Assembly (NCBI GenBank): GCA_030681265.1
Contig: JAUXXD010000064.1
Location: 1-32,781 of the forward strand
Length of the DNA: 32,781 nucleotides
Reading direction: 5' to 3'
Source: Candidatus Didemnitutus sp.
GTDB taxonomy: Bacteria; Verrucomicrobiota; Verrucomicrobiia; Opitutales; Opitutaceae
The notes under the pieces were generated by a model. That model saw only the letters and a list, made by a program, of their open reading frames with translations. It was not told the DNA's origin and made no database searches. Numbering within the stretch: the first letter of the stretch is position 1; every line of letters begins with the position of its first letter. Below are positions 1 to 23,427 of this stretch, piece by piece. Position numbers and translations under genes: made by a program.

Positions 1-2630
1 ACACGCCGCCGGTGATCCAGCGCAACCTGTTCGAAAATCCCGGCTGGTATACCGCCTACACGCCCTACCAATCCGAGATCTCGCAAGGCCGCCTCGAAGC
101 GCTGCTCAATTTCCAAACGCTCGTCACCGAACTCACCGGCATGGAAATCGCCGGCGCGTCGATGCTCGACGAAGGCACCGCCGCCGCCGAAGCCATGATG
201 CTCGCGCATCGCGTGAAGCTCGGCGAATCCGCTGCCGCCAGCACGTTTTTCGTCTCCGAGCGTTGCCACCCGCAAACGATCGATATCGTCCGCACGCGCG
301 CGTTGCCGCTCAACGTCACCGTCGTCGTCGGCGATCATCAATCCTTCGAGTTCAGCACCGGCGTCTTCGGCGTGCTCGTGCAATACCCCGACACTACCGG
401 CAGCGTGCACGACTATGCGGCGTTTTTTGAACGCGCCCACGCGGCGGGTGCGTTGTGCGTCGTCGCCACGGATTTACTCGCGCTCACGCTCCTCCGCGCG
501 CCCGGCGAATTTGGGGCCGATGTCGCCGTCGGTTCCGCGCAACGCTTCGGCGTGCCGATGGGTTTTGGTGGACCGCACGCCGGTTTCCTCGCGACGAAAG
601 ACGCCTACAAACGCCAGATGCCCGGCCGCCTCGTCGGTGTTTCCAAAGACGCGCAAGGCAACCCCGCGATGCGTCTCGCTCTCGGCACGCGCGAGCAACA
701 CATCCGCCGCGACAAGGCCACGTCGAACATCTGCACCGCGCAAGTGTTGCTCGCCGTCATGGCGTCGATGTATGCGGTTTACCACGGCCCCGACGGCCTT
801 CGCGCCATCGCCCGTCGCACGCGTCTGCTCACGCAATTGCTCGCCGCCGCGCTCGAACGCACCGGCGCCACGGTCAACGCTGAGCCGGTGTTCGACACGT
901 TGACCGTCTCCGGCATCGAAGCCGGCGCAGTCCACGCCGCCGCCGCGAAACAGAAAATTAATCTGCGTCCGGTGAACAGTAGCAGCTTTGCGCTCTCGCT
1001 CGACGAAACGACGAGCATCGCAGAAATCGAAACGCTCGTTGCCCTCTTCCGTAGCAGCGAGCACCAGCGAACCGACGAACTTCCACTCGCTAGCGCTCGC
1101 GGCCACGAGGAATACCCCGCGCCGCACGCCCGCACCTCGGCGTTTCTCACCGCGAAAGCGTTCAACAGCTACCACACCGAACACGAGATGCTGCGCTACA
1201 TCCGTCGCCTCGAAGCGAAGGATCTTTCGCTCGTGCATTCGATGATTTCCCTCGGCTCGTGCACGATGAAACTCAACGCCACGAGCGAGATGTTTCCCGT
1301 CACGTGGCCGGAGTTCGGCGCGCTACATCCGTTCGCACCGAGCGACCAGACGAAGGGTTACACGAAGCTGTTCGCGCAATTGGAAAAGTGGCTCGGTGAA
1401 ATCACGGGCTTCGCTGGCGTCTCGCTGCAACCCAACGCCGGCTCGCAAGGCGAATACGCGGGCCTGCTCGTGATTCGCGCCTACCACGAGTCGCGCGGCG
1501 AAGGTCATCGCAACATCTGCCTCATCCCCACTAGCGCGCACGGCACGAATCCCGCCAGCGCCGCGATGTGCGGCATGCAAGTCGTCGCCGTCGCCTGCGA
1601 TGCCAACGGCAACATCGACCTCGCCGACCTCAAGGCCAAAGCCGCGCTCCACGCCGCCAATCTCGCGGCGTTGATGGTCACTTATCCGTCCACGCACGGC
1701 GTGTTCGAAACCGGCATCCGCAGCATCTGCAAAACGATCCACGCGCACGGTGGCCAAGTCTACATGGACGGCGCCAACATGAACGCGCAAGTCGGTCTCA
1801 CCTCGCCGGGCTTCATCGGAGCCGACGTCTGCCATCTCAATCTCCACAAAACTTTCTGCATCCCGCACGGCGGTGGCGGCCCCGGCATGGGCCCGATCGG
1901 CGTCGCGAAACACTTGGTGCCGTTCCTCCCGAGTCACGCCGTCGTGCCTTTGCACAACGACAGCGGCGGCCACCACATGGGCGCGGTTTCCTCCGCACCG
2001 TGGGGCAGCGCGAGCATCCTCGTGATTACGTGGATGTATATTCGCATGATGGGTCCCGACGGACTCACGCGCGCCACACAATTCGCCATTCTCAACGCCA
2101 ACTACATCGCCAAGCGCCTCGCGCAGCATTTCCCCGTGCTTTATAAAGGCGGCAGTGGTCTCGTCGCACACGAGTGCATCCTCGAATTCCGTCCGTGGAA
2201 AAAACACGGCCTCGAAGTCGAAGATGTGGCGAAGCGTCTGATCGATTACGGTTACCACGCACCGACGATGTCGTTCCCCGTGCCCGGCACGCTCATGATC
2301 GAGCCGACCGAAAGCGAAACGCGCACCGAACTCGATCGCTTCTGCGATGCGCTCATTTCCATTCACGGCGAAATGGCAGCCGTCGCCAACGGTGTGAGCG
2401 ACAAACTCAACAACCCGCTCAAACACGCCCCGCACACCGCGGCCGTGGTCTGCGGCACCGAGTGGAACCGCCCCTACTCGCGCGAGACGGCGGCGTTCCC
2501 CGACCAGTGGACGCGCGCCGCGAAGTTCTGGCCCGCCGTCGGACGCGTCGACAACGTCTACGGCGACCGCAATCTCGTGTGCTCCTGCGTCGGGATGGAA
2601 GCCTACGCGCAGCAGCCGGCGCAGACGTAA
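1..2630 (+). CDS. gcvP: Glycine dehydrogenase (decarboxylating), P-protein, 5'-truncated
   Basis: This is the P-protein of the glycine cleavage system, the PLP enzyme that decarboxylates glycine and passes the aminomethyl group to lipoyl-GcvH. The frame is open from the first bases of the window (T-P-P-V-I-Q-R-N-L), so the N-terminus, roughly 90 residues judged from the usual length near 950, lies outside; the GTG at position 12 is internal. Both homologous halves are present in one chain. The motif [12 protein letters not shown] opens the visible part, GSCTMKLN starts the C-terminal half, and the PLP lysine is in NLHKTFC (codon 1848-1850), followed by a glycine-rich loop. The C-terminus has GDRNLVCSC. 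The linker between the two halves (about 1050-1110) contains a REP-like inverted pair, described separately. gcvT and gcvH are presumably upstream, outside the window. Confidence 0.97.
1051..1106. repeat. Degenerate REP-like inverted pair inside gcvP
   Basis: Positions 1051-1076 match the local REP core at about 22 of 26 bases in the forward direction. Positions 1087-1106 match its reverse complement at about 16 of 20. Together they form a head-to-head pair. The forward copy is translated as RSSEHQRTD, close to RSGERQRPD encoded by the REP copies in recD2 and in the transposase. It lies in the linker between the N- and C-terminal halves of GcvP. The matches were counted by eye; the copy is diverged, so chance similarity cannot be fully excluded. 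Confidence 0.55.
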
Positions 2631-2642
2631 TCCCATTTCCAA

Positions 2643-2832
2643 TCGGCTCGCTCCGCGCTCGCCGCTACGGCTGCTCGATATCAACCCGCCCTACGATGAC
2701 TCACGACTCACCCCGTAGCGGGGAGCGCCAGCCTGACTCCTCCGATCGTAGCGGGGAGCGCCAGCGACCCGACTCCTCTGATCGTAGCGGGGAGCGCCAG
2801 CGACCCGACTCACCCACCCGCCAGCGACCCGA
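2643..2832. repeat. REP cluster upstream of and inside the RAYT gene start
   Basis: An inverted-orientation REP variant lies at 2643-2668 (GGCTCGCTCCGCGCTCGCCG core). Direct copies with core GTAGCGGGGAGCGCC start at 2715, 2748 and 2784, and a truncated copy (CGCCAGCGACCCGA) is at 2819-2832. Spacings are 33 and 36 bases, both multiples of three, so the copies stay in one reading frame if translated. The inverted copy next to direct copies can fold into a long imperfect hairpin, as in BIME-type REP pairs. Confidence 0.85.
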
Positions 2833-3379
2833 TCAATTCGCATCCAAAGGCCACCTCCCGCGCCTCGCGCCCGAATTCTACCGCGGCCACGCCTTCGTGC
2901 ACTGGACGCTCACGGTCGATCACCGCGCCACCGGCTGGCTCGATCCCTCATTCCACCACACATGGCGCCACCTGCTGCTGCACACGTGCGCCCGCTACGA
3001 GTTGCTGTGCCCGGCCTACGTCTTGATGCCGGATCACCTGCATCTGCTCGCCGCCGGCATCTCGGACGACGCCGATCAGCGCCTCGCCATCGAGTTCCTC
3101 CGTCAGCACCTTGCGCCGGCGCTCGCGCCCGTCCGCTGGCAAAAACAAGCGCACGACCACGTGCTCCGCGAGGAAGAGAGGGCGGCGGACGCATTGCCGG
3201 CCGTGGTTTACTACATCTTCGAGAATCCAGTGCGCGCAGGTTTGGTCGAACGCTGGCAGGATTACCCTTTTGCCGGTTGCTGCGTGGCGGGTTATCCGGA
3301 AATTGACCCGCGCGCCGAAGACTACTGGCTGCGGTTGTGGCGGGTTTATCATTACCTCGTGCGCACGAACGCCTCGTGA
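2696..3379 (+). CDS. REP-associated tyrosine transposase (RAYT), Y1/IS200-like fold
   Basis: This is a single-domain Y1 transposase of the RAYT group, single-strand nucleases thought to mobilise REP sequences. The HUH-type pair is visible as H114-L-H116 in the motif LMPDHLHLL. The candidate catalytic tyrosines are Y172/Y173 just before the family motif ENPVRAGLV. From the ATG at 2696 the product is 227 residues, but residues 5 to about 45 are low-complexity repeats (SGERQRPD units) encoded by REP copies. The conserved domain starts only near HLPRLAPEFYRGHAF. The true start could therefore be internal, and translation of the REP segment is not proven. REP arrays flank the gene on both sides, the classic RAYT arrangement. 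It follows gcvP by 65 bases and is convergent with the GreA-like gene. Confidence 0.85.
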   Translation: MTHDSPRSGERQPDSSDRSGERQRPDSSDRSGERQRPDSPTRQRPDQFASKGHLPRLAPEFYRGHAFVHWTLTVDHRATGWLDPSFHHTWRHLLLHTCARYELLCPAYVLMPDHLHLLAAGISDDADQRLAIEFLRQHLAPALAPVRWQKQAHDHVLREEERAADALPAVVYYIFENPVRAGLVERWQDYPFAGCCVAGYPEIDPRAEDYWLRLWRVYHYLVRTNAS

Positions 3380-3381
3380 CA

Positions 3382-3520
3382 TCGGCTCGCTCCGCGCTCG
3401 CCGCTACTCCCGCCCCGTAGCGGGGAGCGCCAGCGACCCATTTCTTCTTCCCAGATGTAGCGGGGAGCGCCAGCGACCCGTTTCTTCTTCCCAGATGTAG
3501 CGGGGAGCGCCAGCGACCCG
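3382..3520. repeat. REP array with 40-bp tandem period downstream of RAYT
   Basis: An inverted REP variant at 3382-3407 is followed by three direct copies beginning at 3417, 3457 and 3497. The exact 40-base period consists of the REP core plus a shared spacer TTTCTTCTTCCCAGAT. The inverted copy and the first direct copy are separated by 9 bases and are nearly complementary, so a strong hairpin or cruciform is expected. The array lies between the convergent RAYT and GreA-like genes, where it could also help end transcription from both sides (inference). Confidence 0.9.
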
Positions 3521-3527
3521 TTGTTCA

Positions 3528-3565
3528 ACCCTACTCTGACCCGTTACTCCACCCTACTCTGACCC
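3528..3565. repeat. 15-bp direct repeat at the 3' end of the GreA-like gene
   Basis: ACCCTACTCTGACCC occurs at 3528-3542 and again at 3551-3565, a 23-base period. The second copy contains the stop codon and last residues (G-S-E) of the minus-strand gene, so the gene tail appears duplicated next to the REP array. Confidence 0.8.
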
Positions 3566-21105: not shown

Positions 21106-23427
21106 ATGCCGACGCGCCACCGCGCGCTGCGACGGGGTTGCATTGCGTCCGCGCATGGCTTTCCATCGCCGCTCGTGGCGGCTTCCCCTCCAGCACCTCT
21201 GACCGGCGTTCTCGAACGCATCATTTTCTTCAACGAAGAAAATCATTACACCATCGCGGAGTTGCGCCCCGAGTCCGCCAAGACCGCCGAGGATCGCGTC
21301 ACCGTCGTCGGCGCATTGCCGGGCGTGCAATGCGGCGAAACCTTGCAACTCACCGGTGAATGGACGCGCCACTCGCAACACGGCGCGCAGTTCAAAGTCC
21401 TCACCTGCCGCAGCGAACTCCCCTCCTCCGTCTACGGCATCCGCAAATATCTCGGCAGCGGACTCGTCCCCGGCATCGGCAAAGTTTACGCCAACAAAAT
21501 CGTCGATGCGTTCGGCACCGACACGTTTCGCATTCTCAGCGAGGAATCCGGCCGCCTCCGCAAAGTTCCCGGCATCGGCAAAGTCCGCGCCACCGCCATC
21601 AAGTCCGCCTGGGAGGAACAAAAGACGCTGCGCGAGGTGCACATCTACCTGCAAACTTACGGCGTCACCACGTCGCAATGCGTGCGCATCGTCGATAAAT
21701 TCGGCCCCGCCGCCCGCGAGATCATCACCAACGAACCCTACCGCGTCGCCCGCGAGATCGACGGCATCGGTTTCAAAACCGCCGACCAGATCGCGCGCAA
21801 TCTCGGCTACGCCAACGACGCCGCGCCGCGCCTCGACGCCGGCCTCATCTACGCGCTGGAGACGTTGCAGGAAGAAGGCCACACCGCCTACCCGCGCGAC
21901 GAACTCGTCACCTACACCGCCACGCTCCTCGAAACTTCCGCCGAACGCGTCGAGTTGCGCATCGACGCCTTGATCAAAGCCGTCGCCCTCATCTCACACC
22001 GTAGCGGGGAGCGCCAGCGACCCGACGCACACCGTAGCGGGGAGCACCAGCGACCCGATGCTTCCCCCCACGACTTCCTGCAACTCCCACTCAACTCCCG
22101 CGCGGAAACGCGCATCGCCGACGTCGTGCCGCGCCTCGCGTCCGTGCCGTCCGGTTTGCCCGCGATCAAAATCGACGCCGCCATCGCGTGGGCGCAGGAC
22201 AAAGCCGGCTTCGCTTTCCACGAGTTGCAAAAATCCGCACTGCAGAACGCCCTCGCCAACAAGTTCAGTATTCTCACGGGAGGGCCGGGAACCGGGAAAA
22301 CCACGATCCTCCGCGCGCTCGTGGAAATCCTCAAAGCCAAGAAAACGCGCGTCACGTTGGCCGCACCGACCGGCCGCGCTGCGCAACGGCTCGCGAGCAC
22401 CACGGGCGGTTTCGCCTCGACGATCCACCGGCTGCTCAAATTCGAAAACGGCTCCTTCACCGTCAACGAATCGCGTCCGCTCGCGACCGACTTCCTCATC
22501 GTGGACGAAGCCTCGATGCTCGACGTGCGACTCGCCGCCGCGCTCTTGCAAGCCGTGCCGACGCGCGCGCATTTGCTCCTCGTCGGCGACATCGATCAGT
22601 TGCCGAGCGTCGGCGCGGGCAACGTCCTCAAAGACCTCATCGGCACCGAACGCATTCCGGTCACGCGTCTGTCGTTCGTTTACCGCCAGCAGAAGGAAAG
22701 TCTCATCGTCACCACCGCGCACGCCATCAACGAAGGCATCGCCTCGCCGCCGCCCGTCGTCAGCGAAACCGCCAAGGCGCAGGCGTGGAGCGATCTCAAT
22801 TTCATCGCCGCGCACAGCGCCGAGGACTGCCTCGCCAAGATCATCGAACTGTGCACGCAGTTCATTCCCGCGCATTTCAAGTGGTTCGATCCGGTCACCG
22901 ACGTGCAGGTGCTGGCCCCCATGCACAAGGGCGTGGCCGGCGTCTCCAATCTCAACGTCCAACTGCAAGCCGCCCTCAACCCGCACCAAAAGGGCCTGCG
23001 GGCCATCAGCGGCGAATACCGGCCGGGCGACAAACTCATCCAACTGCGCAACAACTACGACAAAAACCTCTTCAACGGCGACATCGGCCGCGTCGTCAGC
23101 GTCGATCTTACCAAAGGCACGCTCATCGCCGATTTCGACGGCGACCACCACGTGTTCGAGCGCAGCGAGTTCAACGAAGTCGCCCTCGCCTACGCCATCA
23201 GCATTCACAAAAGCCAGGGCAGCGAATATCCCGTCGTGATCATTCCGCTGTTGAAGGGCCATTTCATGATGTTGCAGCGCAACCTCGTTTACACCGCCCT
23301 CACGCGCGGGAAGAAAAAAGTTTTCATCGTCGGTGAACCCGCCGCCTACGGCATGGCCGTGCGCAACGCCGAATCCAAACTCCGCTGCACCCACCTGCGC
23401 GAAAAAATTCTCTCTCTCCTCCCATGA
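21106..23427 (+). CDS. recD2: RecD2/TraA-type SF1B DNA helicase with in-frame REP insertion
   Basis: RecD2 is a 5'-3' SF1B helicase of organisms lacking RecBC, involved in DNA repair and replication fork maintenance. The 773-residue product has an N-terminal OB-like domain and tandem helix-hairpin-helix motifs (LVPGIGKVYANKI, VPGIGKVRATAI, IDGIGFKTADQI). The helicase core follows, with Walker A GGPGTGKTT (392-400), APTGRAAQRL, Walker B FLIVDEASMLD, GDIDQLPSVGAG and, near the end, AISIHKSQGSEYP and VYTALTRGKKKV. Residues about 298-320 contain two REP-encoded units, RSGERQRPD and RSGEHQRPD, just before LPLNSRAETRIAD. The start is uncertain: ATGs at 21061 and 21106 and a GTG at 21175 are possible, and the family alignment only begins near PLTGVLERIIFF. 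chaN overlaps the stop. Confidence 0.94.
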   Translation: MPTRHRALRRGCIASAHGFPSPLVAASPPAPLTGVLERIIFFNEENHYTIAELRPESAKTAEDRVTVVGALPGVQCGETLQLTGEWTRHSQHGAQFKVLTCRSELPSSVYGIRKYLGSGLVPGIGKVYANKIVDAFGTDTFRILSEESGRLRKVPGIGKVRATAIKSAWEEQKTLREVHIYLQTYGVTTSQCVRIVDKFGPAAREIITNEPYRVAREIDGIGFKTADQIARNLGYANDAAPRLDAGLIYALETLQEEGHTAYPRDELVTYTATLLETSAERVELRIDALIKAVALISHRSGERQRPDAHRSGEHQRPDASPHDFLQLPLNSRAETRIADVVPRLASVPSGLPAIKIDAAIAWAQDKAGFAFHELQKSALQNALANKFSILTGGPGTGKTTILRALVEILKAKKTRVTLAAPTGRAAQRLASTTGGFASTIHRLLKFENGSFTVNESRPLATDFLIVDEASMLDVRLAAALLQAVPTRAHLLLVGDIDQLPSVGAGNVLKDLIGTERIPVTRLSFVYRQQKESLIVTTAHAINEGIASPPPVVSETAKAQAWSDLNFIAAHSAEDCLAKIIELCTQFIPAHFKWFDPVTDVQVLAPMHKGVAGVSNLNVQLQAALNPHQKGLRAISGEYRPGDKLIQLRNNYDKNLFNGDIGRVVSVDLTKGTLIADFDGDHHVFERSEFNEVALAYAISIHKSQGSEYPVVIIPLLKGHFMMLQRNLVYTALTRGKKKVFIVGEPAAYGMAVRNAESKLRCTHLREKILSLLP
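22001..22058 (+). repeat. Two tandem REP copies inside the recD2 coding sequence
   Basis: Copies of the REP core lie at 22001-22026 and 22034-22058, 33 bases (11 codons) apart, so they keep the reading frame. The second has one G-to-A change in the core. They are translated in the same frame as the copies at the transposase N-terminus and in gcvP. Confidence 0.92.

Follow-up and report, generated by a model that had tools for sequence, protein, structure and literature searches.

The REP-associated tyrosine transposase (RAYT) encoded downstream of gcvP in Candidatus Didemnitutus sp. very probably has an N-terminus coded by REP elements, and on comparative grounds this appears to be a conserved trait of one gcvP-linked RAYT lineage. 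In the reading that we favor, with a probability of about 0.8, translation in this lineage would start in the spacer of the REP pair at the 5' end of the gene, and the enzyme would thus bear a disordered, REP-coded tail that is a tolerated passenger. The window, that is the whole stretch of DNA analyzed (32,781 nucleotides), is one entire contig (C83) of a 3.56-Mb assembly in 220 contigs, with relatives in the Opitutaceae; the layout of the locus is given in Table 1.

Table 1. Features of the gcvP-RAYT region of the window, in positions of the window.
Feature	Position	Strand	Remarks
gcvP (glycine dehydrogenase)	12..2630	+	5' end near contig edge; stop ends at 2630; upstream and co-directional in 14/14 tested clade members
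Inverted REP, 5' arm of REP/REP hairpin	2644..2668	-	
ATG, proposed start codon	2696..2698	+	65 nt past gcvP stop, 19 nt ahead of first direct REP
Direct REP 1, in frame	2715..2738	+	degenerate tail
Direct REP 2, in frame	2748..2771	+	reads RSGERQRP
Direct REP 3, in frame	2784..2807	+	reads RSGERQRP
Partial REP (3' half), in frame	2819..2832	+	reads RQRPD
RAYT coding sequence, including putative REP-coded N-terminal tail	2696..3379	+	227 aa
Conserved RAYT core	2849..3376	+	HxH (HLH), catalytic-type Tyr, NPVRAG
Inverted REP right after RAYT stop codon	3383..3407	-	
Downstream direct REP	3417..3440	+	spacing 40, not divisible by 3
Downstream direct REP	3457..3480	+	
Downstream direct REP	3497..3520	+	

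The window protein matches the NCBIfam model for REP-associated tyrosine transposases (NF047646) with E = 6.3e-16 and 58.6 bits, under the curated cut-off of 80, and the Pfam Y1_Tnp model (PF01797) with E = 0.22 and 12.1 bits, under the cut-off of 23; since Pfam did not recognize it above cut-off, the protein itself was taken as the search query. The two histidines of the HUH motif (H114 and H116) are invariant and Y173 is nearly invariant in an alignment of 54 rows (54 of 59 listed sequences); in 27 rows all three are invariant, as are N177, P178 and R180 of the motif beside the tyrosine, which reads NPVRAG in the window. RAYTs are defined by an NP(L/V)(R/K)xG motif adjoining the tyrosine, according to the relevant section of PMC2817692. 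The window core is intact, with every motif residue present. The structure of a RAYT on a REP hairpin (4er8) is both the closest structural match in the PDB (E = 1.5e-8) and the sole profile match (E = 6.2e-8). In the AlphaFold2 model the pLDDT is >90 in the core and about 51-57 in residues 1-50, which are presumably disordered. The gene is flanked by REPs in inverted orientation, direct at the 5' end and inverted past the stop.

Read in the RAYT frame, the REPs yield RSGERQRPD-like repeats. The initial annotation had described in-frame REPs at spacings of 33 and 36 bases, and three REPs at these spacings are indeed present, followed by a partial fourth. It had also put the start of the frame within a REP cluster and counted about 45 REP-encoded residues: the ATG does lie in the cluster, though not inside a REP but in the spacer that separates the inverted REP from the first direct one, and the tail from ATG to core amounts to 51 residues. 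The direct REPs downstream of the gene differ from the in-frame 5' ones in being spaced by 40 and 40 bases. The REP 20-mer (up to 3 mismatches) has 43 sites in the 3.56-Mb assembly, where the reversed control has 1; in the window two more direct REPs, 33 bases apart, are present at 22001-22053, and the end of the downstream cluster (3515-3560) contains a 23-base repeat (GACCCGTT...CTACTCT) twice. Because the REP is free of stops in two of its three forward frames, with a TAG in the third, an open frame by itself comes cheap. The bare open frame runs 234 codons above the core, and we discarded it as evidence for that reason.

Among the codons ATG, GTG, TTG, CTG, ATT, ATC and ATA (table 11), none is found in frame from 2699 to 2848 of the window; the first later in-frame start is a GTG at core residue 17, whose use would remove invariant core residues. 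The ATG at 2696 is thus the only plausible start codon of the window RAYT, although no Shine-Dalgarno stretch is obvious by eye ahead of it. A start after about position 2830, which the initial annotation had offered as one of two readings, fails on this count unless initiation is non-canonical.

What goes beyond chance comes from the comparison with relatives. Searches with the core covered 252 genomes of the family, 156 of which gave a match at E <=0.001 (most of them distant), and 372 genomes of the order, 36 of which gave one at E <=1e-30; genome contigs were also searched with the core (best 80 of 389). After removal of duplicates 96 cores were anchored, L096 and L097 not being anchored. 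The layout of start codon, in-frame REP and core is recognized in 14 anchored cores and in L097, which is truncated at a contig edge, from nine Opitutaceae genera in all; L097 was counted for phase, start codon and spacer and left out of the tree, gcvP and folding counts. In a tree of 85 of the 96 unique cores, one change suffices for the 14 members; support is weak for the whole group (41/79) and good for 11 of the 14 (98/90), so that a single origin of the REP-in-frame state is weakly supported. Within the available upstream sequence gcvP precedes the RAYT on the same strand in 14/14 clade members vs 0/82 of the others. The gap from gcvP stop to RAYT start is 27-172 nt in 11 members, 701 nt in L021 and 1358 nt in L022; in L012 the two genes overlap. 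Nine congeners with readable flanks (L209-L217) hold neither a RAYT nor convincing REPs downstream of gcvP, and L218 is cut at a contig end; REPs at gcvP in other genera and not in congeners suggest several losses, or a transfer together with gcvP.

The last REP lies at one of five distances from the core (29, 38, 41, 44 or 65 nt), and its phase relative to the core is nevertheless the same in 15/15 clade members. The extra REPs of L009, L015, L018 and L019 are also in the core frame, and REPs that lie upstream of the start codon take other phases in L012, L015 and L017. Given a single origin of the layout, the five distances require a minimum of four changes in length, each by a multiple of 3; we estimate that chance would produce this with a probability of about 0.01. 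This case is made stronger by the REP-REP spacings inside the tails (multiples of 3 in 5/5), but 8 of 19 spacings elsewhere are multiples of 3 as well, and taken as sole evidence such spacing was rejected as weak. In the 82 relatives outside the clade, for which the ATG nearest upstream of the core, or failing that the nearest GTG/TTG, was taken as the predicted start, REPs lie ahead of the start, and 66 have a GTRG hairpin nearby. Phases 1/0/2 are there distributed as 12/22/32, the clade's phase being the rarest, and the predicted start lies beyond the end of the hairpin except in three loci (end-to-start 1, 19 and 34). As to the exceptions at 19 and 34, the L151 hairpin contains the ATG and does not look REP-like, and L027 has no ATG. 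The start region of L027 shows ATA where its sister L035 has ATG, and upstream its frame passes through a different REP type; ATA can serve as a start, and L027 is a possible second, younger REP-coded N-terminus.

The initial annotation had proposed a comparison of RAYT starts in relatives. In this comparison a start codon precedes the in-frame REP in 15/15 clade members (by our chosen reading, 13 ATG, 1 GTG and 1 TTG), the exceptions being L016, which requires GTG, and L013, which requires TTG or a far ATG. In 10 members, the window included, the ATG stands exactly 19 nt before the GTAG of the REP; its columns are identical in 10/10, and mean identity is 61% in the remaining 16 spacer columns and 52% in the 21 bases ahead of the ATG. 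One may ask instead whether the ancestral start was the GTG that closes the last REP (GCGA-GTG-G), with the REP as an untranslated 5' leader and an incidental ATG upstream. Such a GTG, a potential second start, is present shortly before the core in 11/15 members, where the REP would then go mostly untranslated; moreover, in other relatives REPs precede the start, and Di Nocera et al. (PMC3733652) considered many N-terminal REPs extragenic. The window, L011, L015 and L019, however, lack this GTG, and the latter three have no other ATG, GTG, TTG or CTG in frame between the start ATG and the core, yet the core is constrained. Nor does a GTG start account for an ATG kept at fixed spacing while neighboring spacer bases vary, or for the fact that the extra REPs upstream of the last are also in frame. 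We therefore consider it unlikely, even if it is the strongest competitor of a start in the spacer.

Apart from these counts, the 5' and 3' REP pairs of L017 are near copies whose spacer holds ATG in the 5' pair and ACG in the 3' pair; the 3' copy of L018 retains its ATG, which cautions against over-reading that contrast. Upstream of its start, L019 has about 3 tandem copies of a unit made of the inverted REP and the ATGAATCC... start region.

Judging from substitution patterns, the RAYT core is under purifying selection. With a Nei-Gojobori script, dN/dS of the core is 0.225 for the window vs its sister L011 and 0.12-0.25 over seven pairs, one of which (L027/L035) lies outside the clade; core substitutions favor third codon positions (40/30/79 for L009-L011). 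The REPs behave differently. Over 14 last copies, differences at codon positions 1/2/3 number 169/117/117, and the stems covary: 93.8% of cells are paired, 12 cells are double-changed, and none of 500 shuffles, which ignore relatedness, scores as high. Differences at all codon positions together with stem covariation indicate that the hairpin, and not the peptide, explains the REP sequence. The REP-coded peptide is thus most likely a tolerated passenger, and the N-terminus probably has no function of its own as a protein.

These data also bear on the idea that the tail is a functional arginine-rich domain, for nucleic-acid binding or oligomerization, whose amino acids are selected. An SxERxR-type peptide can be recognized in 15/15 last copies, with single-residue departures (e.g. 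ECER in L097), and the window has up to 3 REP copies, as might be expected of such a domain; but a selected peptide is hard to reconcile with substitutions that follow stem pairing when those of the core favor third positions, or with a tail that is predicted to be disordered and is missing from distant relatives. We regard it as improbable, more so than a GTG start. Where the initial annotation suggested that the enzyme carries its recognition element as a protein extension, the extension itself is favored by the lack of a later start, the conserved ATG and the constrained core; a function of the peptide is unsupported, because the tail tracks hairpin base pairing rather than the genetic code and is predicted to be disordered. 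Finally, the window gene could be a decaying transposase that has lost its true start and whose frame through the REPs is accidental, as the internal stop of clade member L020 (inside the core), the congeners lacking the whole unit at gcvP and the REP frames often open by chance might suggest, but its intact core with complete motif residues, its dN/dS of 0.225 vs L011 and an ATG at the same position as in nine other members make this very improbable.

Whether the REPs at the locus also shape the mRNA was studied by folding with RNAfold the stretch from 60 nt before the start to 12 nt into the core in 14 members. In about 10 of the 14, by reading of the structures, the start codon falls in or at the edge of a loop closed by the inverted and direct REPs; it does not in L012, L014, L021 and L022, the first two of which have no inverted REP directly before the start. 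These predicted folds suggest self-limited translation and a low output of transposase. They also count against a start at the ATG, where the hairpin could impede initiation. A more speculative extension, which we rate as rather doubtful though less so than any of the rival readings above, is that the REP has been made part of the RAYT initiation region, and that ribosomes terminating on gcvP, or RAYT binding the hairpin, set the output, so that the enzyme would be autoregulated and coupled to its host. If the start is coupled to the hairpin in this manner, the RAYT cannot freely lose the 5' REP pair without losing its start.

According to the reading with a start in the REP spacer, then, the RAYT would be held at a fixed site past gcvP, with one copy of a REP pair on either side; the ribosome would start at the ATG in the spacer of the 5' pair, translate the one to three REPs of its 3' arm and proceed into the catalytic core, giving an enzyme with a disordered, REP-coded tail. 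Frame and start codon would be under selection because the core is, while the sequence of the tail would be dictated by the DNA/RNA hairpin and carried along as a passenger. Transposase output would be held low by the mRNA hairpin, whose loop contains the start codon, and the enzyme and its flanking REPs would be cognate. On this last point the abundance of REPs is supportive at most: the REP pattern is found in 15/15 genomes with the clade's RAYT and in 91/237 without it, but four of the 15 hold 2-3 copies, perhaps just those at the locus, and genomes without the clade's RAYT can be rich in copies (e.g. G239 with 165, G075 with 134 and G098 with 121).

These results can be compared with known systems, as far as the texts cited here describe them. 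RAYT/TnpA-REP systems or REPtrons (Nunvar 2010, PMC2817692; PMC8266576; PMC6006769) share with the window the HxH-Tyr core, NPVRAG, inverted flanking REPs, GTAG-tagged hairpins and the 4er8 fold; in these systems, however, REPs flank the gene, whereas in the window one to three of them would be in the coding frame, with the start codon between two REPs. REPs inside ORFs, most of the GTAG ones in Opitutus terrae, have been reported, also at N-termini, and a figure legend records REPs overlapping transposase 5' ends (5'ov), but the N-terminal ones were mostly judged untranslated or misannotated (Di Nocera 2013, PMC3733652). In contrast to those cases, phase, start codon and locus are here conserved over nine genera. 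The Rickettsia palindromic elements (RPEs; PMC10969869, PMC3733652) are likewise palindromic repeats read in frame within proteins, though in unrelated host genes, whereas the gene in the window codes for a member of the very enzyme family that acts on the repeat; for a REP palindrome as a putatively translated part of a protein, in the manner of RPEs, the comparative case is strong. The tnp mRNA of ISPpu9 (PMC8450116) is also that of a transposase with translation limited by 5' mRNA structure, but its structure lies in an untranslated leader and is opened by an antisense RNA, whereas in the window the coding sequence would include one hairpin arm. Among the titles and abstract openings that our searches of the open-licence literature listed, none describes a RAYT whose N-terminus is REP-coded.

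A RAYT lineage that draws its start codon and N-terminus from a REP pair would tie enzyme and substrate together in one frame, and would provide a counter-example where REPs at the N-termini of ORFs are usually put down to annotation errors. It bears on the long-term association of RAYTs with REPs, a question treated in PMC8049555, and touches in our framing on a second one, namely how RAYT output stays low.

Two further observations concern the ends of the RAYT gene. In L017, L013, L018, L019 and L020 the 5' REP pair closely resembles the 3' one, so that the core looks as though it were framed by a duplicated pair. In L012 (1468-2133, minus strand) the C-terminus of the RAYT, RSLTLAAT, is apparently coded by an inverted REP after the core, so that both ends of this protein may be REP-coded.
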